DNA of 64,000 bases from Alloascoidea africana (taxonomy: Eukaryota; Ascomycota; Alloascoideomycetes; Alloascoideales; Alloascoideaceae). This document shows positions 1 to 61,802 of this stretch, one piece after another. A model generated the notes under the pieces. The model was given only the letters and a program-made list of their open reading frames with translations, ran no database searches and was not told where the DNA came from. Each line of letters opens with the position of its first letter. Positions within the stretch are counted from its first letter, which is position 1. The stretch is taken from NCBI GenBank assembly GCA_030581615.1, contig JAKTTT010000042.1, positions 124,001 through 188,000 of the forward strand, read 5' to 3'. Both the position numbers and the translations under genes were made by a program.

Positions 1-2372
1 TGACCTGTCCCTGTTCCTGATATACATGACTGTTGCTATTGTTAAGTTCGTTTTGTGGGTCTCGAGGTAACCAGACGCTTTCTTGTTGACGGATATCATT
101 CCTATAAAATGGTTGCGTGGGAGCGCCTGTTGTTCCATGAATGTTCGGAGCAGTCTGTTCTTCTGAAATGCTTCTTTGGGTTCCGGTATTTAAAATTTCT
201 GAGGAGTGCTGCTGTCTCACCGGTTCTTCATTTTCTGGATATAACTTCTTTGACAGATATAGGAAGTGATGAAACAAATTTCCTATGCTTTCCCAAAATA
301 GATGGCCTGGTGAAAACCCTAGCATTTTCCGATCTTCGAAACGTTTGATATCTTCAATGAAAACATCCATAAGTGCAAAGTTTTGCGAAGCTTCAGGGTG
401 TTGGGGATGCAGTAAAATATACGTGAACAGAGCGAAAAACCCAGACACCGGATAATATGTAAGCCAATTATTGTAGAATGATATGATTCTGTTGTACTTA
501 TGTGCCAGTTTCATAATTTCTTTTGCGGAAAGAAAGTATTTCTGAAGCGATCGATGTGCAAAGTTTTTCCCATTCTTGCAGCTGGCTAAAAAACTACTGT
601 CCGAAGAAGAATCCGAAAAAGTCATTACAGCCCTGTTTATCGACATGATAAGGTCGTAATAATTGAATTGTAGGTATAGAATTATTCCGCCTATTGTTTT
701 GATTCGTAGAGAAGCATCCTCAGCACAGCAAACTCGAAGGAGTTCGTTTTCTCCGGGTCTCAAAGTTTTTGGCAGGTTGTTTTCCCAAGCTGTCACTTTG
801 GCTTCTAAATAGGTTGCGATGTCGACGACTTCTTGAAATGTCTTTCCTTCAAATGCTCGAGGGCAAAATAGTTTCTCAAAACACTCGCCAATAATCCAAT
901 GAAGAGACCCATAAATCCGCTCAGCAGCCTTGTCAAACTGTTGCAAAAACTCTGATAATGTATTCTCAAAAGTCGGATCGTTCCCATTCAAGGCATGAAG
1001 AAGCTTGTTGGCCGCTAGATCCAGGTCTTCCATTTCGTTGGTTTCCCTAATGAATAGAGGCATCGTTATATCTCTTTGATGTGTTACTGGAGGCCTGCCA
1101 AATTTAATTGATGACTCGATATCTAGACAATAACATCTCCACCAAGCTTTTATTCGCCTATCTGCATTCTCGGGGGACAGCCCAGACAGGCTGGATTTAA
1201 GATGAAGACCAGACTCTTGGGCTAGTCTTACAACCGTTGAACAAAACATATACCCAATTTCTGGAGCTGTTACCATAGTAAACACATTACAGGCAAATAT
1301 CAGCGCTTGAATGCCTTGAAAGCCGTCGCCCACGATGGACAGTCTGTGGTAATAAAACACTGCATTTCTCACGTATTTGACAGATTTCTCTCGCCCCCAA
1401 ATTTCAGTTGATCCAACAAGGTTTACATTTCGGTTCTCTTTAGCTTCTTCTAGTAAATACCCGCACAAACAGATTAGATTCAGAATTAGCAACTCCGCGT
1501 TAGAACATTTTGTCTTGTAATAACGATCAACCATGTCGTTTCTGGAAGGTGGTTCGACAATATCTACAGATAATTCCATGCATTCACCCACGATATCAAC
1601 ATATTCCAGTAATGTTTTTTTAGGCGGTAATGGCTCAAGCTGGGAGGTATCTATAGGCTGAACAAACAGTTTCAGGTGCTTATTTATATAAGACAGGACC
1701 TTCTTCTTTGCCTCCATAAGCATATCCAAGTCTCTTCGAGTAACTTTAACTCTAGAGGCTACCCATTCTACTCCTTGTGGAGAAAACACAGAGAAATTAA
1801 TATGCGGACCGTTAAAATTTGAAAAATCAGATGCGAGCGATGGGTCGTTTGAGGCTTTTTCAATGTTTGAGGAGGCTTTCAGATTATTATTTGGAGGGCT
1901 AGAAGATTCATCGTCCGAAGAGTAAGCATCAGAGCTGTCGGAGTTACCATCTTCTTCTTCCTGAACAGCATCGAGAGGACGCTTTTTTGATTGTGAGTCG
2001 CATGTAGGTTCTTTGATATCTAATTTTATTGCGATGCTCTCGATCAAGGATTCCATTCGTTGTAAGCGTGTCTCTAGAGTTTGCATGTATCTTACACTGT
2101 AAAACATTTGTTAGACTCCTATACCCACAGTGTTAAAGTCAAACTAGCTTGTCATCGTACCGCTTTGGAGGACTTCTTTTCTTTTCAACGTGTGTATAAG
2201 TGCAGTCCACTCCATAGTTCAAACAATTAGCACAGGTCGTCTTTCCATCACATTTGATTTTCTTCTTTCTACAGAGATCACAGGCCTTGGATGTTCTCTG
2301 CCGCTTTAACAATCGCAAGGGCTGGGAACCAGAAGATCGGCTTCGCACACAGTTGGGAGCAAACGAACTCAT
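1..2372 (-). CDS. Zn2Cys6 transcription factor, C-terminus cut by window edge
   Basis: Nuclear zinc-cluster regulator. Exon 1 (2161-2372) encodes a Gal4-type cluster with Cys at residues 31, 34, 41, 47, 50 and 57 (spacing CX2CX6CX5CX2CX6C), preceded by basic residues. I infer an intron at 2097-2160 (donor GTACGA, branch CTAAC, acceptor ACAG). This joins SPPKR to [14 protein letters not shown], the usual linker plus coiled-coil dimerisation element of this family. Exon 2 (<1-2096) stays open to the left edge. It has an acidic Ser-rich stretch, then a helical region resembling the fungal-specific middle homology domain, including a [15 protein letters not shown] segment. The start ATG at 2370-2372 is the first in frame before the cluster. 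The protein continues outside the window, and its targets cannot be told from sequence. Confidence 0.88.
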
Positions 2373-3340
2373 CAGGAAAGAGAAAGAATCCAGCTCTTCA
2401 GGGCTTCCCGTAATGCTTCCACAGTGGCAAACTGAACTTCATGTGTGCCGCTTGAAGCTAACTTAGCGAATACATGTGAATATGCAATTACCCGGCGGTC
2501 AGAGGACATGCTGGAAGTTCTAAAGTAATCCCGGGAAACATATTAGAATCAGTCAGGAACGGAAAACTTAGGAGAATTTATGTGGGAACCAAGCTTCCGG
2601 CATATCCATTTGGAGTCCAAGCAGGCATTTTTCTCCACGCATGTTGTTGGGACTGTATTGTAGGATGTCCGGAATTGCCAGAGCAAGTCCGAATAGCATT
2701 GCTAAACTATCTTTCTATCAAACAATCACCAAATGAACCCTAACTGGTAAGCCGAATGGCGGACATTCCTGGTCAAAAGTTGGTGACAAGCTCAATATGG
2801 ATGTTTGCATCCAGTTGTGTCTTCATGACAGAGATGGCCTCTATTTTTATAATATTCTTTTTATGTTATTAACCAGGAACAGGACTTTCTTCTGGTTTCT
2901 ACGTATGAATTATATAGTGAGCGTCCTTTCTCGCTTTAGTTTTAAGAATACTAACTGGCTTGACCTCAGGTCTTGCTAGTAACCTTTCGAATTAAAACGT
3001 TTTTTATTTCTGCCAAGAAGGAAAGAAAAAAGCTACAGGGCTTCACATGGATGTCACATACAGACCTCACTTCAATTCATAGAGAAAGAGTATTCGTCAT
3101 CGAGTCACATCATTTCAACTTTCTTCTTTCATTCTTCTGGAAACCCCAGTTTCCAACTTCCGGGTTCATCTTACGCACCACCGTGTGACCTCATCTGAAG
3201 CCGTTCTACAGTTTGTAAATGGTCTCAAAGTATTTTTCAGTAATGAATAAGATTCCCACATTAATTATGTATATACAGTCGATAAACAAAAACTGCTTAT
3301 CAGTAATTACTGAGGATGAAATGGTGACATAAAATTAGAA
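2373..3340. other. Intergenic, no gene seen
   Basis: This 968-base stretch lies between the zinc-cluster gene and PET127. It holds only short open frames (up to 71 codons) with no recognisable domain or splice support. It presumably carries the promoter of the zinc-cluster gene and the 3' end of PET127. Confidence 0.6.
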
Positions 3341-5839: not shown

Positions 5840-7700
5840 GAAGGATTAGCCGAGAAAGTGAGTCAATGGATTCACTGTTTAAATCCGATGGAAGTTTGGA
5901 TATTTGCAAAGCAAATATACCAATCATTGTTAGAAGGATTAAACAGAAAATCCAGACTCAGCCTGTACAGACAGGAAAAGGAAAGAGAAAATCGGACGCC
6001 CTGGTCAGGAAGGTTCAGAATATGGCAAAAAGACCAGATCATAATCTGGCAACCGATCAAATAGTCCGAAATTATCCTCAAGGTCCTCCACCTTTGATAG
6101 ATAGTTCCTTTTCGTGTCATGCTGTGGACGTTGACTCGAGCTTCATTAAGAAGCATAATGAGTTATTGCGGGTACCAAACAACTATTACCAAGCAGTGCA
6201 TTGTACAGAGGCTATACAGTGGAAAACGACCATGGAAGAAGAATACTCGAAGCTCAGCGCTCCGGTAACACGCTATGAGTTCATTGGATTTGCACTGTAA
6301 TTAGCTACTAAATATGGACTTCAAACTAAACATTTAGATGTAAAGAATGCATTTTTATTTGCAGAAATTCCACAAAAAGAAAAAATCTATGTTGAAGAAC
6401 CATTAGGATTTGGAAAGAACCGAAAAGCAAAAGTGTGGAAACTTCATAAGTCTTTATACGGTTTAAAGTCATCGCCAAAAAGGTGGAACCAAACACTGAT
6501 GACATATTTAGTCGAAAGGATTCCAAAGACTTACTTCAAGTCCTAGTGTATATGTGTTGAAAGGAAGAAACAGTAGTGATTATACTATTGCAATTATATA
6601 TGTTGACGGTATGCTTCTTCTAAGTAAACATGATTATACGTTCAACGATATCGCGAACGTTATAAAAGAACGTTTTGAACTAAGTGATTTAGGTCCTGTC
6701 AAGAAGTTTCTCGGCTTACATATAGACATGGATTACGATCACGGAACTTGTGCCATCGATCAGACAATTTATATTGAAAATCTGGCCAAGTTCAAAGTAA
6801 AAAGGGTATAGCTCCAAAAGAAGAGCTTAGACCTAGAACCCAAAGAAAAGTTGATAAACCGGGCTCACAGTATGTGGGTTTCCATTCAGTTCCGATGGAT
6901 GACTTCTATTTTAAAGATGATGACTTACCAAAAGACGAACTTGAAGCTCTGGAGGTAAAACTGTATCCTTACAGAACCCTCGTGGGCGGTTTAATTCATA
7001 TCGCAAGATGCACACGTCTGGACGTGGCCTACAGTGTAGGTTGTTTAGCTCGATATATGAATAAACAAGGCAAGAAACACTGGGATACAGCGCTACAGGT
7101 TTTACGACATTTATATCATACACGGAACTTCAAGCTACTTTACTCTAGGGGTTCTTGTGATCCGAAAGGAAACAAACCCCAATTATGGGGAGAAAGTGAC
7201 GCGAATTGGGCTCCTTCGTCTTCTGATCTGAGAAGTACATCGGGTTATATTCTACGATTTGGTGGTGATACCATTCACTGGTCATCAGCAGTTCAATCGC
7301 TTACAGCGCTCAGCTCATCTGAAGCGGAACTGTAAGCGATGGTAAAGTTGGTAAAAGAAACCCTAGGGTTTCATTATTTCATAACGGAAATTAATAAAAC
7401 AATAGGTTTCCCTGTGGTACCACTCCAAATCCCGATACCACTGTTTACAGACAACCAAGCGTTGGTGAATTGGCGTCGTGGGAAAGAAGAGTACCGCCGG
7501 ATCAGATTTGTGGTTTTTAGAATACGACGACTCCTGGAACATCAGGATAAGGAAGTCGTGGTGGATAAAGAGGACGGAAATGAAAATACGGCTGATATTT
7601 TCACTAAGCCTCTCCAAAGAGTGAAGTTACAATATCACCGTGGTCATATCCTCGAAGAAATATTACCACCGGAGTCTACGTTAAGGCGGGACACCTAGAG
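5840..7700 (+). mobile_element. Fossil Ty1/copia (Pseudoviridae) retroelement, pol 3' part
   Basis: Remnant of an LTR retrotransposon of the Ty1/copia family on the plus strand. What remains is the reverse transcriptase region followed by RNase H, in the order typical of copia pol: an RT segment with KHLDVKNAFL and LYGLKSSPKRWNQ, the YVDGM-type RT box, the DLGPVKKFLG motif, then RNase H motifs around SDANWAPSSSDLRSTSGY, LSSSEAEL and NTADIFTKPLQ. I do not recognise capsid, protease or integrase regions, nor a matching LTR pair. The copy is broken in at least four places and cannot be active. Protein motifs are still easy to read, so decay is moderate rather than ancient. Confidence 0.9.
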
Positions 7701-41693: not shown

Positions 41694-43415
41694 TTACTTT
41701 GCGCTAGATTTAGCAAAGATAGCTTTGTTAGAACGTCCTAACCAGGCCTGTTGATTTTCTATGAACATCATCATTGCTGTCTGTGATAGATTGGGCACTG
41801 GAAGCAAAATGAGCCAGAAGCAGAAAATCAGGATCATTCCAATTTTTAATGGAGTCGAAATTAGTGTCATCAGAATCAAGCTCCCTGGATCATTCTCAAT
41901 TTCTGACTCAATCTTATCAAGGTCATCGATTCTATATGAGTATTCCCCAGAAACATCGATCTTGTCAAAAGAGAGTGATGCTGAATGATAATCCTCAAGA
42001 ATCAGCCCGGTACTGGAGTTTTCAGTAGCCGTAGCCAACTTTACTCTCTTGTACTCTCTCGACCAGGTGGTTTTCACGGTAGTAAAGTTTGGACTGGAGA
42101 AATCTGGCGGGTCTCCCATGTAACGATAGCGAGGCTCTCTGGACTTACATTCATTCATATAAAGGCCTGATGCAGCTTGGATCCGATCGGAACAGAGACC
42201 AAAATGGTTAACTGTTTGAATCTTATCAAGCCAACCATAATCTATTGATCTGTTCAGGTTTGCCCCATTGTAAAACATGGTTTGGGTCAACGTATTCTTT
42301 TCACTATCCGCATCCAGGGCATAAACATGTGAAACTACACTGTAAGTGTCATTTCTCTGATCCAATGCAGTATATTCAAGATAGTAGTAAGTTGGACTTG
42401 GCTCAATTGTCTTTCCTTCGTTGGTGCCGTTGCTCAGGCCAGAGGTAAACTCTGTGCTCAGGAGTCTGTCTCTGATTGCAACTACAACAGACTCATTTGA
42501 TACTTTTAGCCTTGATATTCGGCTCGAGTAGGCTCCATCTGGGAGAATCTGGAATGGAAAGTGGTAAACAGCAGAAAAGTCATCTTTCAAGGCGCTCGGC
42601 CCAATAATCAACAGCTCGTGGTCTTTAGAGTAGTAGTTTGTGTCCAGCGAATAGAATGGTGACTTCCACATGTCTGTCTGGTTGACAGAATTGCCAGTGC
42701 CATGAAGAGCTTTAAAGATGTCACCGTCGGCAGATACAGTCTTTGCAAGCTGCTTGCCGTAAAGGGCTACCGCAAGGTCATTATATCCCTTGGAGTTGTC
42801 GACAGAGGTTGGCACCTCTGGTGGGAAGATATCATAGAAACGCAACCATGCATAGAGGGCGTATGTGATCTCGACATCCAGCAGGCTGTTCTGGCTATAC
42901 GTCTCGTAAACGCTATCTTTTGAGAGAATAGGATTGGAGATGAGAAGAATCTTTTGCGATGCGTACTGGATGGGGATGCTGAGAAACCTCGCTGGTATCG
43001 TGAGCAGGAAGAGCCAAAAAACCACCAGAAGGATGACTACTGGAGCACGAACAGGGGCTGTTGTCCATGTTTTGGGCTTCAAGCAAGTCAGCGCTTTCCA
43101 GAAGTTCCACCTAGAGTTCTCGATTTTGCTTTCTTGTTCTGTTTCTGACCCTGCTATGCTATGTTGTCGACGACTTTCATCGTCTTCATCTTCTTCTAAT
43201 GAGGCGAGTGGAATTAACTCACTTTCTCTTCGTCCCTTAAGCAACCTTTTTAGAAACTCTGAAACCAGCTTCAAATAGGACGTGGAGAGCGCCAGGAACA
43301 GATTAGCGCATCGGACAGCATTACTCACACGATCGACTAGAGCCAGAAAGATCTCTGAAGCGGCAAAGCCCACCACAAATGCCAATATCGGAAGCTGGTG
43401 ATAAGATACAATCAT
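41694..43415 (-). CDS. Unknown three-TM membrane protein, paralogue A
   Basis: I do not recognise this 573-aa protein. It has TM1 near residues 8-27, a cytosolic acidic, Ser/Glu-rich linker, TM2 after RAPVVILLVVFW, a large probably luminal or extracellular domain with many N-glycosylation sequons, and TM3 near the C-terminus (IGMILIFCFWLILL). It is a diverged paralogue of the divergently transcribed neighbour at 43574. Both share NPxxSxxxxY...NSL, YALYAW/GLYAW, YNDLAVALYGKQLA/FNDIALGLSGKQLA, GAYSS and IRDRLLS/IRDKLVS. The ATG at 43413-43415 lies inside a 34-bp tandem duplication that also places an out-of-frame ATG upstream. Confidence 0.8.
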   Translation of the reverse strand: MIVSYHQLPILAFVVGFAASEIFLALVDRVSNAVRCANLFLALSTSYLKLVSEFLKRLLKGRRESELIPLASLEEDEDDESRRQHSIAGSETEQESKIENSRWNFWKALTCLKPKTWTTAPVRAPVVILLVVFWLFLLTIPARFLSIPIQYASQKILLISNPILSKDSVYETYSQNSLLDVEITYALYAWLRFYDIFPPEVPTSVDNSKGYNDLAVALYGKQLAKTVSADGDIFKALHGTGNSVNQTDMWKSPFYSLDTNYYSKDHELLIIGPSALKDDFSAVYHFPFQILPDGAYSSRISRLKVSNESVVVAIRDRLLSTEFTSGLSNGTNEGKTIEPSPTYYYLEYTALDQRNDTYSVVSHVYALDADSEKNTLTQTMFYNGANLNRSIDYGWLDKIQTVNHFGLCSDRIQAASGLYMNECKSREPRYRYMGDPPDFSSPNFTTVKTTWSREYKRVKLATATENSSTGLILEDYHSASLSFDKIDVSGEYSYRIDDLDKIESEIENDPGSLILMTLISTPLKIGMILIFCFWLILLPVPNLSQTAMMMFIENQQAWLGRSNKAIFAKSSAK

Positions 43416-43449
43416 GGAGTGTCGGAAGCTGGTGATAAGATACAATCAT
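43321..43449 (-). other. Upstream ORF overlapping start of paralogue A
   Basis: The second copy of a 34-bp tandem repeat supplies an ATG at 43447-43449, out of frame with the main ATG at 43413-43415. It opens a 42-codon frame that ends at TAA 43321-43323, inside the main coding region. If the transcript starts upstream of it, this uORF would reduce translation of the membrane protein. Confidence 0.5.
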
Positions 43450-43459
43450 GAAGTATCGG
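43386..43459. repeat. 34-bp tandem duplication across a start codon
   Basis: The unit TCGGAAGCTGGTGATAAG... begins at 43388 and again at 43422, and TCGG recurs at 43456, giving a period of 34 bp and just over two copies. The copies differ at one or two bases. Near-identity implies a recent duplication. Confidence 0.9.
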
Positions 43460-43573
43460 TCAAAGGCAATAATGGGTCATGGATACGAATCTTTGAGATT
43501 TAAAATTTACAATCTGAAATATCTCTTAATGGCTATTATTATCCGTTAAACTCATCTACTTGCCACTACACAA

Positions 43574-45292
43574 ATGCTCGTCAACTATGCCTCTTTACTC
43601 GCCCTGTCGACTATAGCGGGATATGCCATCTCTTATCTGCTTTATGTTCTTTTCGATTATCTTGCAAGCAAAATGAAAACGACAAACCTCTGGTTTGTTT
43701 TCCGCACCTCACCTCTTCGATCTATAGCCAAGAGTTGGACCAACACAGAGACTGATCTGAAGAAAAGTCAAACAAATGTTAAGTTTGCCACTTCAGACTG
43801 TGAGGGTATACCAAAAAGGTGCTATCACCAAACCAAATATGCTCCGGAGACTGGCTCCGAGTCAGATGCCCCTGTTTCCTTATTATCTCGAAGGTCATTG
43901 CAGCGTGTTTGGAGAAGCTCGGTGCATGCGAAATGGACCGTAGAAAAGGCACGGGCTCCAGCATTTTTTCTCCTGGCCACTGTCCTCTTTGGCGTTGTCT
44001 CTTTGGGAAGCCATATGATTGTTTTGGCCATTCTAAATTCATCAGAGGAGGTTGTCATTGTCCCAAACCCTTTATCAGCAGTTGACAATTTGTACCAAAA
44101 GATAAGCGGAAACTCGCTAGTAAATGCCAAACTGACAACAGGTCTCTATGCCTGGGCACAATTTGCAGACATGGCAAAGAATGAAGGCATTTGGGGGCAA
44201 CCTCCAGAAAGAATTGACAAGACCTTTGACTTTAACGACATTGCTTTGGGTCTTTCTGGGAAGCAGCTGGCTTTAAACATATCCGCTAGAGCAAAAATCG
44301 ATCCCGTCTACACAAACTTCATTCCCAGCAGATTTGAAAGCTCTGCTCTCAGTTCTTACTATACCGAAGATGGCAAGTTTTTGGCTCTTGGTGCCAAAGC
44401 TAAGTTTCGAAACACAGACGGCGGGGCCTACGACTTTGCCCACATTCCTGTATACCGCATGCCCGTGGGGGCTTATTCGTCGTATCTGGCTGAAATGGTG
44501 GACGAGAAAGGAGAGAAAAGAAATTGCCTTATTAGAGACAAGCTTGTCTCTGTGGAACCGCTAAGCGACGAAATGACGGGCGAAAGAATCCACATTATGT
44601 TCAGTTGGATCAAGCTAAATATGACGCTGAACGGGAACAACTCTCACATTACGCCGACCGGAGTAGCACTTCTGAACTCGACCAGATTCTCCAATGGTAA
44701 AGCTGTAGTTGACATGGTATTTTACGTTCAAAATGTGACGGACGCGACGAGGCTAAATCTCTACGCATGGCTGGATCTTGTTGAACGGTCTAACTTTGAG
44801 GTCTTCCAAGTTTACTTTTCTGAGCCTCCATGGGTGTTCATGAATCCAGGCTCCAACATTTGTGGAACCTATATTACAACTGGCGTACCTTCCTGCTCAA
44901 ACTATAGCGCTGCCAGAGACCCTCCTATACTAATAGGCTATCGCTTCACCTGGATTCACGAGATGCGACCTGTGGATGTTGAGACCTCAGGAATATCCTA
45001 TACACCAAACGTCAGAAGTAGAGAGCTCTACTTTTCAAGAAACAATGTATCTGGTAACATGAGGTACGTTGTTAAAACTGGAGATCATAGTAAAGACTTT
45101 TACATTTCCTACAGCCTCCCAAACGGTATATTTGGTTTGATCATTGCCCTAGTGTTTATTGCATTGCTTTCTCTTCCTTTCTGGGATAAGACATCTTCCA
45201 CAGCCACTTCTCTGTTCCTTTCTAATCAGGTTCCAAGCGCTCAGTCGCATACTTGGCTGGACACAGCGTTTTCCCGAAGCCAAGCTAGATAG
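43574..45292 (+). CDS. Unknown three-TM membrane protein, paralogue B
   Basis: I do not recognise this 572-aa protein. It has the same architecture as paralogue A: N-terminal TM1 (YASLLALSTIAGYAISYLL), basic and Ser-rich cytosolic linker, TM2 (APAFFLLATVLFGVVSLG), a glycosylation-site-rich outer domain of ~350 residues, and C-terminal TM3 (GLIIALVFIALLSLPFW). Shared blocks with A are collinear through the whole protein, so the pair arose by duplication with inversion. Only about 158 bases separate the two start codons, which suggests a shared bidirectional promoter. Identity is low by eye, so the split is old. A receptor-like or wall-related role is only a guess. Confidence 0.8.
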   Translation: MLVNYASLLALSTIAGYAISYLLYVLFDYLASKMKTTNLWFVFRTSPLRSIAKSWTNTETDLKKSQTNVKFATSDCEGIPKRCYHQTKYAPETGSESDAPVSLLSRRSLQRVWRSSVHAKWTVEKARAPAFFLLATVLFGVVSLGSHMIVLAILNSSEEVVIVPNPLSAVDNLYQKISGNSLVNAKLTTGLYAWAQFADMAKNEGIWGQPPERIDKTFDFNDIALGLSGKQLALNISARAKIDPVYTNFIPSRFESSALSSYYTEDGKFLALGAKAKFRNTDGGAYDFAHIPVYRMPVGAYSSYLAEMVDEKGEKRNCLIRDKLVSVEPLSDEMTGERIHIMFSWIKLNMTLNGNNSHITPTGVALLNSTRFSNGKAVVDMVFYVQNVTDATRLNLYAWLDLVERSNFEVFQVYFSEPPWVFMNPGSNICGTYITTGVPSCSNYSAARDPPILIGYRFTWIHEMRPVDVETSGISYTPNVRSRELYFSRNNVSGNMRYVVKTGDHSKDFYISYSLPNGIFGLIIALVFIALLSLPFWDKTSSTATSLFLSNQVPSAQSHTWLDTAFSRSQAR

Positions 45293-52678: not shown

Positions 52679-53418
52679 ATGGATAAATTACGAGAGGTAT
52701 GTTCGTATATTTGATCTAGCTTTTGAAGTGGAATGTGAGCCCAGAAGCCAACGGTGATAAGTGGTGAGGTGGTCAATTAATAGACGCGTGGATGCCTTTG
52801 CAATGCCCAAACTTCAATGCTGGAGAGAGATTTTGATTGCACAATGTGGTTGTTGACGCTCAATGGGCCAATATTCTAAAAGAATTTCAAGTTTCTGCCA
52901 ACTGCGTTTGAATCAGGATGTGAAGGAAATATACTAACAGATAATGATAGAAAATCAGTTCTTTGAAGGCGGAAGTTGAAAACTCCCAGATAAAAGCTGA
53001 TGATGCCTCAGACAAGGTCAAAAGCTTGGAAGAGGAAATTTCTACCAAAGAGCACGAGATCAAATCTTTCCAGCACAAGAATGGACTCTTAGAAGAACAG
53101 ATTGAAAAACTAGAAACCACAATTGCTGAAAGCAAAAGCTCTTTGGAAGATTTTTCTTCTCTCAAGACATCTAATGAAGGCTTTATCAAGAAGAATGGTT
53201 TGTTAGAGGATGAGCTGGAGGAATCGGATAAGAAGCTGAAAGAGGCCACAGATGCGCTTCGCGAAACAGACATCAAGGCAGAGCAATTAGAGCGAAAGGC
53301 TGCCGCGTTGGAAAAAGAGAAAGATGAATGGGAGAAAAAGTTTGAAGAGTTGGCTGAGCGATATGCTACCACAAAGTCCGAACTGGAAGACATTTCCCAA
53401 CAGTTGGATGCCATCTAG
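52679..53418 (+). CDS. TPM1: Tropomyosin
   Basis: Coiled-coil protein that coats formin-made actin cables. Exon 1 is only 18 nt (52679-52696, MDKLRE). A 254-nt intron follows (donor GTATGT, branch TACTAAC, acceptor GATAG), and exon 2 runs 52951-53418. The product is 161 aa, the same length as Saccharomyces Tpm2 and fission-yeast Cdc8. It starts MDKLREKISSLKAEVE and is heptad-patterned throughout, with LEEDLEESD-like LEDELEESDKKLKEATD and KAEQLERKAAALEKEKDEWE blocks. CTG codons fall at conserved Leu heptad positions, which supports the standard code. The stop is TAG at 53416-53418 followed by CAA TCG. The same frame stays open afterwards and encodes a possible membrane tail, listed separately. 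Confidence 0.95.
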
Positions 53419-53574
53419 CAATCGGAATTTGCAAAAGGAAATGAGGATGGCGATAGTGATGCTCATAGTGGGAAAGGAGACGATAAAGATGACACCAACA
53501 TTACAAGCAATGGTTTTGGAAACCCTTGGCTCATTCTAATAGTTCTTATCGTGTATTGGCTCAAAGAAATATGA
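53419..53574 (+). other. Possible readthrough extension of tropomyosin with membrane tail
   Basis: Directly after the tropomyosin TAG the frame continues for 51 codons to TGA at 53572-53574. The predicted extension has an acidic, Gly/Ser/Asp-rich linker (QSEFAKGNEDGDSD...), then PWLILIVLIVYWL and a short KEI end. This is the layout of a tail-anchored membrane protein. The stop context UAG-CAA-UCG matches the leaky UAG-CAR-YYA pattern except at the last base. No splice pair that would skip the stop was found. Alternatives are a chance open frame (roughly 1 in 12 for 51 codons before considering composition) or a recently truncated longer gene. Confidence 0.5.
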
Positions 53575-54265
53575 ATATACTAGACCGCTTGCAAGTATAG
53601 ACCTTTTTTGTATGCTCTTCTCTTAAGTATAGAATTTATTCCTACTGTAAAGCATGTGGTGGGGACGTTGTGTGAAAAGCCAATTAGCTTCTATTTTTAC
53701 TATCTAAGAGGAAATGAGTTCAAATCTTGTAAAAGATCCTAAGATACATTCTAAGTTGGGTTAGACAAATTGGTGCCCTCGTTAACACTCCATAGTTTGG
53801 CGTTTCTGGGTTTCTCGGTTTATCAGTGAGCACTGGAGCGAGAATATGTCCAGAAACGGGGTTTGCTGACATCGCTATCATGACCAGATGATTGGTTATG
53901 ATCTTCATGATCATCCTTGCAAGCAGAAAGAAATAGAAGAGTGATGGATGGACAGTATGAGATGAATATCTAAAGAGGAAGAAGAGAAGTAGAATGTGAA
54001 GGAAGGAAGAAGTCAAACACACACAAAGAATATATAGAGTAAGTAGAATCCATAAGGAATTATCGAAACTTGACTCTTTTAGGCTCACAATCCTGGACAT
54101 TGCTCACAACTCCCGCAATCGCGTCTCTGTATTCAGTGTTATAGAGGACCAGCAAGTATATAGCACAGCATCGGCACACCGAGAGAATTGCCATAACAGC
54201 GAAAGCATAGCTAAGTAACAATTCGGGTACCTGCTCGTAGGCCTATGATAAGCTGAGCAACAGTC
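53575..54265. other. Intergenic with LTR-like stretch
   Basis: About 690 bases between tropomyosin and the APH-like gene. It contains candidate solo-LTR copy B and otherwise only unsupported short frames. Confidence 0.5.
53940..54095 (+). repeat. Candidate degenerate solo LTR (copy B)
   Basis: It has the same motif order as copy A near 13.9 kb: a purine-rich run with GGAAGGAAGAAG, AATATATAGAG, TAGAATCCATAAG and CTCTTTTAGGCTCACA. The two copies are clearly related but diverged. It is probably an old LTR fossil of a Ty-like element, lying at the left side of the foreign-looking APH segment. Confidence 0.3.
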
Positions 54266-56406: not shown

Positions 56407-58422
56407 TCAAGAGCTTTCCCTCTCAGCTTTGACAACCTCAACAAGGTGTGGGACAACCTCTGGGTTTGACAAAGTGGTAATATCTCCCAAAGAATCCTCC
56501 TCAGCATTCAAGATCTTTCTCACGATTCTTCTCATCAATTTACCGGATCTCGTTTTTGGTAAATCGTTCACAATCCAAACCTTTCGAGGAGCAGCAAAAG
56601 GTCCAATATCCTTTCTAATTGTTTGTCTTAGCTCAACCTTCAAAGGTTCAAGTTCTTCAGTCGAAGGGGTCTTTTTCAGAGAAACAAAAGTGTGAACTGC
56701 CTGTCCAGTAAGCTCATCAGCAACGCCAACAGCTACAGCTTCAGCGGCTGCGGGATGCTCCAAAACAGCAGACTCGATTTCAGCAGTTGACAAACGATGT
56801 CCTGAAACATTGACAACATCATCAACACGACCTCTAACCCAGTACATTCCATCATCATCGCGAGCACAACCATCACCAGAGTTGTAAATATTTGTTGTGC
56901 GAAGAGGGAATGATTCAAGATAAGACTTGATGTAACGGTTATGGTCGTTCCAAACCGTACGTGCCATGGATGGGAATGGCTTTCTGATGGCAAGAACACC
57001 TTCAACGTTGTTACCCTTTAGTTCTTCTCCAGTAACAGGATCAACAATAAGTGTATCTATTCCAAAAATAGGGAAAGAGGCTGCACCTGGCTTCGTAGGT
57101 GCAACTCCAACGCAAGAGGACAAAACTTGAGATCCTGTTTCTGTTTGCCAGTAACTGTCAATCAAATGAACATTGCTGTTTCCAATCATCTTGTAATACC
57201 ATTCCCAAACTTCATGGGCAATTGGCTCACCAACAGAACCAATCATCTTGAGAGAAGAAAAGTCATGATGAATCCAGTCGTCACCAGCGCGCTTTAGAAG
57301 ACGAAGTGCTGTGGGTGCAACGTAGAAATGGGTGATCTTATTCTTCTCAATGATATCCCAGTATCTTGAAAAATTTGGATAGTTTGGCGTGCCTTCGTAC
57401 ATCACAGTGGTTCTTCCCAGTCCTAGGGTTCCATAGCAGATATAGGTGTGTCCAGTAACCCAGCCGATGTCGGCACAGCAGAAGAATTTGTCATCTGGTT
57501 GCAAGTCAAATACATATTTGGCGGTTTGCATAGCTGCGACCAAATATCCACCAGTGGAATGGGCCAGCCCTTTTGGTGCACCTGTGGAACCAGAAGTGTA
57601 TAGCATGAAAAGAGGATCTTCAGCGTTGACGGGGACGGGAGGGCAATATGCTCTATGCTTTGGTACTTCCTTGTGCCACCAGCTGTCTCTTTCGTCAGTC
57701 CAAGGGACGTCATTTCCAGTGCGTTGGTAGACTAGACAGTGTTTGACTTCTGGGCATTCCTTTAGAGCATCATCTACTATTTTCTTGGTTTCGATTATTC
57801 TTCCACCTCGCGTAGACTGGTCAGTAGTGATGACAATATGGGAATTTGCGTTCTTGATTCGATCACGAAGAGAAGTTGAAGAAAATCCACAAAACACAAC
57901 AGAATGGAAAGCTCCCAATCGACAGATTGCAAGCAATGTGATGACAGACTCTGGGATCATTGGCATATAGACGGTGACGCAGTCACCTTTCTTGACACCA
58001 AAGGAAGAAAGAACATTGGCCACTCGGCACACCTCACGGAGCAGTTCGCGGAAAGTGATATTTCTTCCGTCACCAGGCTCATCAGCTTCGTAGATAATAG
58101 CCACTTTATCGGGATTGGCAATGGCATGTCTATCAACACAATTGTAGGAAGCATTTAGCTCTCCTTCCAAAAACCAGGCGGCATCACCATGCTCAAATCC
58201 TCCACTAAGAACAGTCTTGAAAGGTTTGGTCCAGTGAAGAAGGTCTCTTGCCTGATTCCCATAGAAAGTTTCCGGGTCCTCAATTGACTGCTTGTACATT
58301 GCTTGGTACTCTTCAAAGTTTTTCAAATAAGAATTGGGATACTTGTCATGGTAGTCAGCTGGTGGAAACACCTTATCGACATGGCGATGTTGTTCCTCGG
58401 TTGTGTTCTGAACTTCTGTCAT
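56407..58422 (-). CDS. ACS2: Acetyl-CoA synthetase (copy 1)
   Basis: 671-aa AMP-forming acetate:CoA ligase. Motifs: the P-loop [18 protein letters not shown], Trp acetate pocket in [65 protein letters not shown] for the hinge and CoA region, and [11 protein letters not shown] with the lysine used in the adenylation step and regulated by acetylation. The frame is open further upstream, but the first 76 residues there are unlike the family. I start at ATG 58420-58422 ([20 protein letters not shown]). It lies in tandem with a second copy 1.4 kb away on the same strand. Whether it corresponds to Saccharomyces ACS1 or ACS2 is uncertain. Confidence 0.95.
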
Positions 58423-59780
58423 ATTTTTGTGTGTTTTCACTGTTTTGATGGCTGATTGATAGTGAATTGAAAAACTGAAGGAGAGAACAAATCCTTTCCA
58501 ATTTATACAAATGAAAATGACCACCAGAACAAGAGGATCAATGTAGCGGTCTACTGGAATCAAAGCGGAGAAGCTTAGAAAATCACCACAAATTATGTTG
58601 GCCTGAGAATCAACACCTCTATCAGTATATCCTAATGGCTGTTTATTCATGTTTTGGTCTCATAATGTGTACCCCACTCTGCCCCAGAGAGAGGATCAGT
58701 TGATAATACCGACCTCAGCCTTGCCCATATTCTAAATCGTTGAATAGGCGAGAAATTGACCTTACATCAAGGCACAGAAGTAAGCGCTGCTGTATGGAAC
58801 TGGGGATGACTTGGCAAACGGTTGAAGATTTCAAATAGAGATAGTCCACATCATCACGGGTCAAGGGAGTTTGTGAAGTTTGCGGAGATTTCTAAAAGTG
58901 GTATTGAATTCATCCCTAGCTCATCGGACATTCCATGCTTCATCACAATACGGTTGATCCAATAATATCTACCTTGGAAAAGAAGAGCAAAGAAGCAAAA
59001 TAGGCGCATAAAATTATAAGAAACGGTTTGGATTTGGGATGAAGAGTCCCAAGATCTCCCAATTCTTCACAAATTTATGGGAGTCCAATGAATGGAGCGT
59101 GCACAATAGGGATATCTTGGGCAGACCCCAAGTCCTTGCTGGAGGTGTCTTGAAGTCTTGATCACATCCCAAAGAATCAACGCCCAAAACGCCAAAGGGC
59201 GTCTCACCTTATTTTAGCTTCTATGCTTTGGTACAGGCAGATACGTGCTGGTATGCAAACCCTCCCTTAGACCCTCTCGACATGAAAAGCCCTCAGGGTC
59301 ACGAAAAAGCCAAGACGCTTTATCATGTTGAAAGACAGTGAGGTGTAGTTAGAAGCCATCCTCACAGTGGAGAGGAGATGAGAGGAGAGGGCAAAACCCC
59401 ACTGACTTCTGCTGGTGCGCTTATCCGGGATCGGACACCAAAATTAACAAAACACGTTTCTGGGACCCTGGTGTATTGTATGGGTCTAAACTGGTAGTGG
59501 CATGTGTCAAATTCAGTTTGCCCAAATGCTTGAGGGACACGCCGCGATAACGGAAAGATTTCACAATGGTTCGTTTGTACTGAACTCGATGAATGATTTT
59601 CCAATTGTAAAATTTGAGCCGAAAGCGTATTGCTCTCATAGGGGTCCGAACTCTGACGTTCAATTTAGGTACCAACTCCAAAAATGTCATTAGCTAGCTC
59701 TAGGACTAATTATTACTCTAAAGAACTAGCACATTTCATAATAAACGAAGAAAAGAGAAAAAAAAAGCCAAGTCAAAACA
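58423..59780. other. Intergenic between tandem ACS genes
   Basis: About 1.36 kb with the promoter of ACS copy 1 on its left side. It contains a CCCCACTCTGCCCC-type pair of GC boxes near 58670-58685. Short frames at 59362-59693 on both strands show no family resemblance. Confidence 0.5.
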
Positions 59781-61802
59781 TCATAATCCTTCTTTTACAA
59801 CATCGATAATATGCTGGACCACTTGAGGGTTGCTCAGAGTGCTAATGTCGCCCAATTGGTCTTCCTCCCCACTCAAAATCCTCCTCAAAATGCGTCGCAT
59901 GATTTTCCCACTACGAGTCCTTGGTAAATCATCAACAATAAGTATTCTCCTGGGTGTTGCAAAAGGTCCAATCTGCTGTCTAATAGCGAAAATCAATCGC
60001 TTTTTGGTAGAGACCACCGAGCTGGGGTCTGGTCTTGTGCGAGTTTTCAGAGACACAAAAGCATTGACCGATTGGCCCGTGAGATCATCATGAAGACCGA
60101 CAACAGCTGCTTCAGCAACATCTCTGTGAGAAAGCAATGCGGCCTCGATCTCGGAGGTGGAAAGCCTATGTCCGGAAACATTCACCACATCATCCACCCT
60201 GCCTCTAACCCAATAGAACCCTTCGTGGTCCCGTCCGGCGCCATCGCCTGTGAAGTATACTCCAGGATATGGCCTGAGATAGGTGTCCAAAAACCTTTCA
60301 TGATCTCTCCAAATTGTACGGGACATGGACGGCCATGGAGATCGAATTGCAAGTATACCTTCTACATCATTGCCCTTGAGTTCTTCGCCTGTCATGGGAT
60401 CAATGATCATTGCATCGATACCAAAGAAAGGGAAAGATGCAGAGCCTGGTTTTGTGGGAGAGACGCCTGCCAGTGGTGTGATCATATGGGAGCCATTTTC
60501 AGTTTGCCAGTATGTATCACAGATTTGTGCCTTGTCTTTCCCCACATGGTGGCTATACCAATGCCAAACCTCTGGAGCAATGGGCTCGCCAACAGAGCCC
60601 AGAATCCGGATACTGGAGAGATCGTGGTGAATATACTTTTCGCCTGCTCTTTTAAGTAGGCGCAAAGCCGTGGGGGCAACGTAAAACTGCGTAACTTTGT
60701 ACTTGTCGATAATGTCCCAGTATCGGGAAAAGTTGGGGTATGCCGGCGTGCCTTCGAAAACAACGCTCGTGGCTCCCAGTAACAAAGGCCCATAGAGCAC
60801 GTAGGTATGACCAGTGATCCATCCAACGTCTCCAGCAGTAAACAAGATATCGTCTTTATGCAGATCAAAAACGTACTTGGAGCTCAAGGCAGCGCCTAGC
60901 AAGTATCCTCCGGTGGTGTGAACCAAGCCTTTAGGAAGGCCTGTGGACCCAGAAGTGTACAAGAGAAAGAGCGGGTGCTCTGAATTGACTTCCACGGGAG
61001 GACAATATGGTCTCTGCTTGACAACCTCTTCGTGCCACCAGAGATCCCGACCGGTGACCCAAGGAATTTTTTTACCAGTACGCTTAACAATAAGGGTCTG
61101 TTTAACACAGGGACAAGACCTCAGGGCTTCATCGACTATTCTCTTTGTTTCAATAGTTTTGCCGCCCCGCTTTGACTCATCAGAAGTGATCACCACTCTT
61201 GATCTGGCATTCAAAATTCGGTCTCTTAACGAGCCGGCTGAAAATCCTGCAAAAACAACAGAGTGGATTGCACCGAGTCTGGCAATAGCGAGGAGGGCAA
61301 TGATTACCTGTGGTATCATAGGAAGATACACAGCAACGGTGTCACCCTTTTTCACACCAAATGATTCAAGTGCATTTGCGACCTGGCACACTTCTCTCAG
61401 CAGCTCGCCATAGGTAATCAACGAGCCCTCTCCTGGTTCGTCCGCTTCATAGATGATGGCGACTTTGTCAGGGTTTTCAATTGCATGTCTATCGACAGCA
61501 TTGTAGCATGCATTAAGTTGTCCTTCCAGAAACCAAGACATGTTCCCATGCTCAAACCCACCAAATTTTGGGGTTTTAAAGTCTCGGGTCCATGATAGCA
61601 AGTCTCGTGCCTGCTTGGAGAAAAACTCAGCTGGATTTTCAATTGACTCCTTGTACATTTTCTCATAGTCCTCAAACGTTGTCAGATGGGCCTGGCCATG
61701 TGGGTGTTCTGTGTGGTACTGGGGCGAGGGCAGGTGTTTTTCCACGTCCGCGGCCTCTACCACGACGACGTTCTGCTTATCATGAGGACATCCTGCTGAC
61801 AT
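59781..61802 (-). CDS. ACS1: Acetyl-CoA synthetase (copy 2)
   Basis: 673-aa paralogue of the neighbouring enzyme with all ACS motifs: [76 protein letters not shown] and [16 protein letters not shown]. Its N-terminus ([21 protein letters not shown]) and its central region differ clearly from copy 1, so the duplication is not recent. The ATG at 61800-61802 is natural. A CCCCGC box about 70 bases upstream (61869-61874) and a TTTAAATA element suggest carbon-regulated transcription. The assignment of ACS1 versus ACS2 between the two copies is provisional. Confidence 0.94.

Follow-up and report, generated by a model that had tools for sequence, protein, structure and literature searches.

A coding-like frame with a hydrophobic end behind the UAG stop of a tropomyosin gene in Alloascoidea africana, and its possible translation by readthrough

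Background

Tropomyosin is a protein that coats actin, and the fungal tropomyosins of S. cerevisiae are Tpm1 and Tpm2. In the same yeast, intron retention in PTC7 reportedly adds an optional membrane segment to a soluble protein.

Stop-codon readthrough is described as relatively abundant in yeasts in the available text of one study (PMC4999894). For fungal metabolic enzymes, the accessible part of the source describes readthrough at UGA CUA that produces a C-terminal extension and dual localization (PMC4207609), and for PDE2 the available text reports that the readthrough extension of Pde2 leads to degradation (PMC10493509). The leaky context of tobacco mosaic virus is given as CARYYA, with CARNBA as its yeast counterpart (PMC4132726, PMC2194720, from the portions available). 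According to the accessible text of the first of these, all six bases of CARYYA seem to matter in an OPRL1 reporter, and readthrough with this hexamer is much alike for UAG and UGA (PMC4132726). A frameshift near the end of TPM2 has been reported in two S. cerevisiae strains, and the available text of that report makes no mention of tropomyosin readthrough (PMC4494051). In the literature that we searched, mostly outside subscription journals, neither a tail-anchored tropomyosin nor programmed readthrough of a tropomyosin gene was described.

Here we present an analysis of a tropomyosin gene of Alloascoidea africana that lies within a 64,000-nucleotide stretch of DNA, hereafter the window, on contig 42 (C42) of a genome searched as 23.18 Mb in 138 contigs. 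Like the three paralogs found in this genome, the gene ends at the usual tropomyosin C-terminus; unlike them, it has behind its stop an in-frame, coding-like tail whose end is hydrophobic, and translation of this tail through the stop could attach a minor fraction of the protein to a membrane.

Results

The tropomyosin gene and its stop

The gene is made up of the following features, with positions given in the window:

52679..52696, + strand: tropomyosin exon 1 (MDKLRE), 18 nt, ATG GAT AAA TTA CGA GAG, then GTATGT
52697..52950, + strand: intron of 254 nt, with a GTATGT donor, a TACTAAC branch point and a TAG acceptor (pattern search)
52951..53415, + strand: exon 2 of the tropomyosin (residues 7-161); the joined protein matches Pfam Tropomyosin (PF00261); 60% identity over 155 residues to the paralog on contig C4
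53416..53418, + strand: UAG stop at the ancestral tropomyosin C-terminus, the same aligned residue as the stop of the three other genomic loci found

Six residues from exon 1 and 155 from exon 2 join into a tropomyosin of 161 aa, which matches the PF00261 profile with an E-value of 8.9e-35 and a score of 120.7 bits against a curated cut-off of 38.6. The MDKLRE of exon 1 aligns with the starts of the paralogs on contigs C25 (MDKLREKL) and C11 (MDRLREKL), and the branch point of the intron is a perfect TACTAAC. An Rfam search of the window gave no matches.

The open frame past the stop

Behind the UAG, the frame of exon 2 stays open for 51 codons (53419-53571; translation QSEFAKGNEDGDSDAHSGKGDDKDDTNITSNGFGNPWLILIVLIVYWLKEI), and it comprises the following features:

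53419..53424, + strand: CAAUCG, one mismatch to the leaky-stop hexamer CARYYA; 0 of 87 control stops lie within one mismatch
53419..53520, + strand: acidic linker of 34 codons, with 9 D/E and 3 K/R; bears the coding signal, +8.8 bits
53521..53571, + strand: C-terminal 17 codons, NPWLILIVLIVYWLKEI, a candidate tail anchor; codon score -3.25 bits, 13-residue Kyte-Doolittle mean 2.49
53572..53574, + strand: TGA, the in-frame stop that ends the extension

The original prediction of 51 open in-frame codons after the UAG, encoding an acidic linker and a hydrophobic end, was thus borne out, with the TGA at 53572-53574; the feature as it had first been noted started at 53401, five codons upstream of the UAG. 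As controls we took 87 ORFs that start with ATG and span 200 aa or more, drawn from 294 kb of the genome with introns ignored, and an in-frame extension of at least 51 codons follows three of them, one of the three being a neighbouring gene in frame. Methionine is absent from the product of exon 2, and the tail lacks an ATG in frame, so a short protein initiated independently would require an unusual start. A readthrough product is predicted to yield the tryptic peptides GNEDGDSDAHSGK and, across the stop, SELEDISQQLDAI-x-QSEFAK.

Coding-like character of the tail

Codon log-odds compare the codon frequencies of the 87 long ORFs with those of non-coding DNA from the regions that hold them; the "non-coding" sets still contain short or spliced genes. 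On this scale the tail scores +5.5 bits in frame, -2.0 and -11.9 bits in the other forward frames and -3.9 to -10.8 bits in the reverse frames, and the median of coding windows is 5.06 bits. Training on the 70 ORFs outside the window gave +5.25 bits, and training on the window's 17 ORFs gave +5.87.

The tail was compared with the 153 bases past each of the 87 control stops, a set that was not selected for openness, so that the open-segment control described below is the fairer one. It tops all 87 of these post-stop windows both in G at codon position 1 (0.39, post-stop mean 0.18) and in purines at position 1 (0.745, post-stop mean 0.48), and its codon score is reached by one of the 87, with stops unpenalised. 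A logistic classifier built on 87 C-terminal coding and 87 post-stop windows (cross-validated accuracy 0.88) gave the tail a value of 0.987, which none of the 87 post-stop windows reached and below which 67 of the 87 coding windows fell. Neither G+C, matched or exceeded in 20 of the 87 post-stop windows, nor pyrimidines at position 3, as numerous in 24 of them, set the tail apart.

The open-segment control consisted of 722 segments, each 45-70 codons long and lying outside any ATG ORF that reaches 100 aa, reduced to 721 by removal of the tail itself. Taken singly, the per-codon score was reached by 22 of these segments, the position-1 G content by 8 and the position-1 purine content by 11, and the purine excess of position 1 over positions 2 and 3 was equalled by 15. 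Codon score, position-1 G and position-1 purines jointly were equalled by none of the 721; the measures used against both the 87 post-stop windows and the 721 segments were picked post hoc, with the tail already seen. By codon score alone, 1150 of 14235 overlapping open non-coding windows did as well as the tail. Simulation from its dinucleotides produced 6740 open sequences among 200000, of which 126 reached the codon score and 17 had an equally hydrophobic C-terminus.

It is the linker that carries the whole of the coding signal, and purines are frequent at its position 2 as well (0.765). Of 213 hydrophobic windows taken from long ORFs, 15% score as low as the hydrophobic end or lower. When scored in 17-codon steps, the frame is negative from 53512 on (-2.1 at 53512-53562); since the drop starts inside the hydrophobic end, the TGA is not marked by the score. 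Taken together, these comparisons support the view that the tail is coding-like by its joint pattern and not by any single measure, with the signal carried by the linker and not by the hydrophobic end. That the tail would read like coding sequence had been anticipated, and none of the 87 post-stop windows and none of the 721 open segments equals it jointly.

A candidate membrane anchor

The tail ends in PWLILIVLIVYWL followed by KEI, which places the 13-residue hydrophobic core three residues before the C-terminus. A hydrophobic core of 13 residues is short for an ER anchor. The codons of this end are varied, with three for Ile, three for Leu and two for Val, and it is therefore no simple repeat. 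Outside the long ORFs there are 1686 open segments of 40 codons or more, the tail counted; 32 have a hydrophobic end as strong, and an acidic stretch precedes it in three of those 32, the tail being one. The end, whose hydropathy mean is 2.49, is a plausible membrane segment, as the original prediction had proposed.

The context of the stop codon

The hexamer behind the UAG, CAAUCG, differs from CARYYA in its last base alone, G for A, and the adenines at -1 and -2 are absent, the bases there being C and U; the original prediction was right on both points. All 87 control stops have at least two mismatches to CARYYA. The full leaky hexamer, which marks one class of programmed readthrough cases, is absent here, as the last base fits neither CARYYA nor the yeast CARNBA. 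Some cases also rely on a stimulatory RNA structure past the stop; the RNA fold of 53419-53530 showed nothing unusual against shuffles (z 0.03). Given the final G for A and the lack of an unusual fold in 53419-53530, readthrough at UAG CAAUCG, if any, would be expected to be modest.

Reassignment of TAG to sense was also considered, and was rejected because TAG is the stop of 23 of the 87 long ORFs.

Paralogs, relatives and the origin of the tail

A six-frame search of the genome placed tropomyosin at at least four loci, on C4, C11, C25 and in the window on C42, from at least eight matches in a search that scores the best candidates; locus counts from such a search are lower bounds for large families. 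All four loci end at one aligned residue, with DAI in the window copy and EAI or ESI in the others. On C4, C11 and C25 a second in-frame stop follows the first after 0, 1 and 8 codons, respectively, and a counterpart of the tail is absent after the stops of all three. The UAG is probably the ancestral state. Because the stop sits at the paralogs' aligned end and the paralogs are without a tail, the window gene probably does not represent a longer protein cut short, and the tail would be a gain.

The C11 and C25 tropomyosins (L010 5713-6084 and L011 5852-6220) are 84% identical and have 38 consecutive residues fewer than the 161-residue form, which leaves 123; the missing 38 residues correspond to about one repeat length. 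The database yielded four protein relatives that share 54-61% identity with the window tropomyosin, and LEAI is the C-terminus in three of the four. One relative, P0001, extends 14 residues beyond the usual tropomyosin end, and the first of these residues, W, may be a TGA translated as W by the gene caller. In an eight-sequence tree, for which the non-tropomyosin N-terminal parts of P0001, P0004 and C25 were trimmed beforehand, no terminal branch is longer than that of the window copy, 0.36 substitutions per site, which would fit a specialised copy.

The tail is single-copy in the genome. Birth of the tail by duplication was rejected, as its sole genomic match, both as protein and as DNA, is itself. 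A region search with the joined protein gave two candidates sharing words and none at E <= 10 (proteins of about 117-372 residues), and one with the tail alone gave no candidates (proteins of about 28-89 residues). Alignment of the tropomyosin against viral contigs and prokaryote genome contigs found no relatives.

When 10-kb stretches of C4, C11 and C25 were compared with the window, tropomyosin was the sole match and there was no shared synteny; two neighbouring genes that were tested have one genomic match apiece. On C11 (L010 3254-6084) and C25 (L011 3242-6343), the tropomyosins adjoin the same neighbour gene, 79% identical over 611 residues, which we take to resemble 6-phosphofructo-2-kinase. 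Tropomyosin and neighbour are here a duplicated segment.

Other features of the window and genome

Three ORFs at 5866-7698 of the window hold polyprotein pieces, presumably of a copia-type retrotransposon, and two adjoining ORFs on the minus strand at 56407-61802 are, we assume, acetyl-CoA synthetase-like. Two divergent ORFs at 41694-45292, of 573 and 572 aa, share a similar layout and are possibly duplicated membrane-protein genes. On contig C4 (72102-73331; L014 about 2102-3331), the TAG of a long ORF is followed by 580 open in-frame codons. The second part of this open frame, which we take to resemble an ALG8-type glucosyltransferase, has its own ATG near the start, and for both reasons it was taken as a neighbouring gene in the same frame.

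Discussion

The most likely reading of this locus, which we put forward tentatively, is readthrough of the UAG that gives a minor tail-anchored tropomyosin. In outline, a diverged tropomyosin paralog would be translated by ribosomes most of which halt at the ancestral UAG, yielding the ordinary 161-residue protein. A minor fraction would insert an amino acid at the UAG, helped weakly by its CAAUCG context, and so add the 51-residue tail, an acidic linker with a short hydrophobic C-terminal segment that would serve as a tail anchor. The few membrane-tethered chains could then pair with normal chains on actin cables. What we infer in this scheme is the passage through the stop, the entry of the tail into a membrane and which membrane that would be.

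It is a further and rather unlikely proposition that the duplicated tropomyosin evolved its tail anchor behind a leaky UAG such that readthrough sets the membrane-tethered fraction and connects actin cables with the cell cortex or an organelle. A tropomyosin anchored by readthrough would represent a tunable link between actin cables and membranes, in which translation termination decides the location of a cytoskeletal protein. Few examples of readthrough with a clear function have been documented in yeasts.

A close rival, just behind readthrough and a serious possibility in its own right, is that the frame of the tail is open by chance within the 3' UTR; its occasional readthrough products would then be misfits flagged for degradation by their hydrophobic end. 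Extensions of at least 51 codons after three of 87 ORFs (one a neighbouring gene) and 31 other segments of 1686 with equally hydrophobic ends mean that some such tails are to be expected in a genome of thousands of genes. In addition, the in-frame score is already negative within the hydrophobic end, the two protein searches (about 117-372 and 28-89 residues) returned no relatives of the tail, and many yeast readthrough cases are suspected to be non-functional, according to the available text of PMC4999894. A chance frame would, however, have to account for a joint coding pattern that none of the 87 post-stop windows and none of the 721 other segments shares, for a stop context unmatched by any of the 87 control stops, and for an acidic stretch ahead of such a hydrophobic end, a combination with only two other instances in 1686 segments.

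An improbable alternative is that the tail is a real exon reached by alternative splicing, for instance from the intron 1 donor to the acceptor-like CTAG that includes the stop, so that MDKLRE would be joined to the tail with no coiled coil, or by an intron that skips the stop. The UAG could indeed close a 3' splice site, with which exon 1 is compatible in phase. However, TACTAAC and NNCTAAC are absent from 53251-53600, whereas the gene's own intron has a perfect TACTAAC, and the single CTRAY match in that interval, at 53536, lies 3' of the stop. Moreover, none of the GTs of exon 2 occurs in GTATGT or GTAAGT, and the nearest to these, GTTTGT at 53198, does not share the phase of the tail. With no branch point in 53251-53600 and no good donor in exon 2, the stop is unlikely to be spliced out or used as an acceptor; removal of the stop by splicing, which had been raised with the original prediction, thus found no sequence support in the search for branch-point and donor patterns.

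About equally improbable is that the UAG stems from a sequencing or assembly error, or from a segregating allele, in a gene that normally encodes a 212-residue tail-anchored tropomyosin: the tail is coding-like and a single base separates a sense codon from TAG, but the three paralogs found stop at exactly the UAG's aligned residue, so the stop is probably ancestral, and it would take a strong coincidence for an error to fall just there.

The readthrough reading can be set against several known systems. In its 161 residues, its PF00261 match and a stop at the aligned C-terminus of the paralogs, the window protein is like a fungal tropomyosin of the Tpm1/Tpm2 type; unlike such a tropomyosin, its gene is followed by an in-frame coding-like tail with a hydrophobic C-terminus, which none of the three paralogs found has. 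As is said of PTC7, the locus would supply an optional membrane segment to a soluble protein, by intron retention in PTC7 and by the proposed readthrough here. The stop is followed by CAA and two pyrimidines, as in the CARYYA of tobacco mosaic virus and the CARNBA of yeast, and differs from both hexamers, as given in the accessible portions of their sources (PMC4132726, PMC2194720), in having G and not A as the last base. Finally, as described in the available texts for the fungal metabolic enzymes (PMC4207609) and for PDE2 (PMC10493509), a leaky stop would add a C-terminal extension. Unlike the UGA CUA of the metabolic enzymes, UAG CAAUCG would give a membrane anchor to a cytoskeletal protein, and whereas the extension of Pde2 leads to degradation, that of the window tropomyosin would be a membrane anchor.
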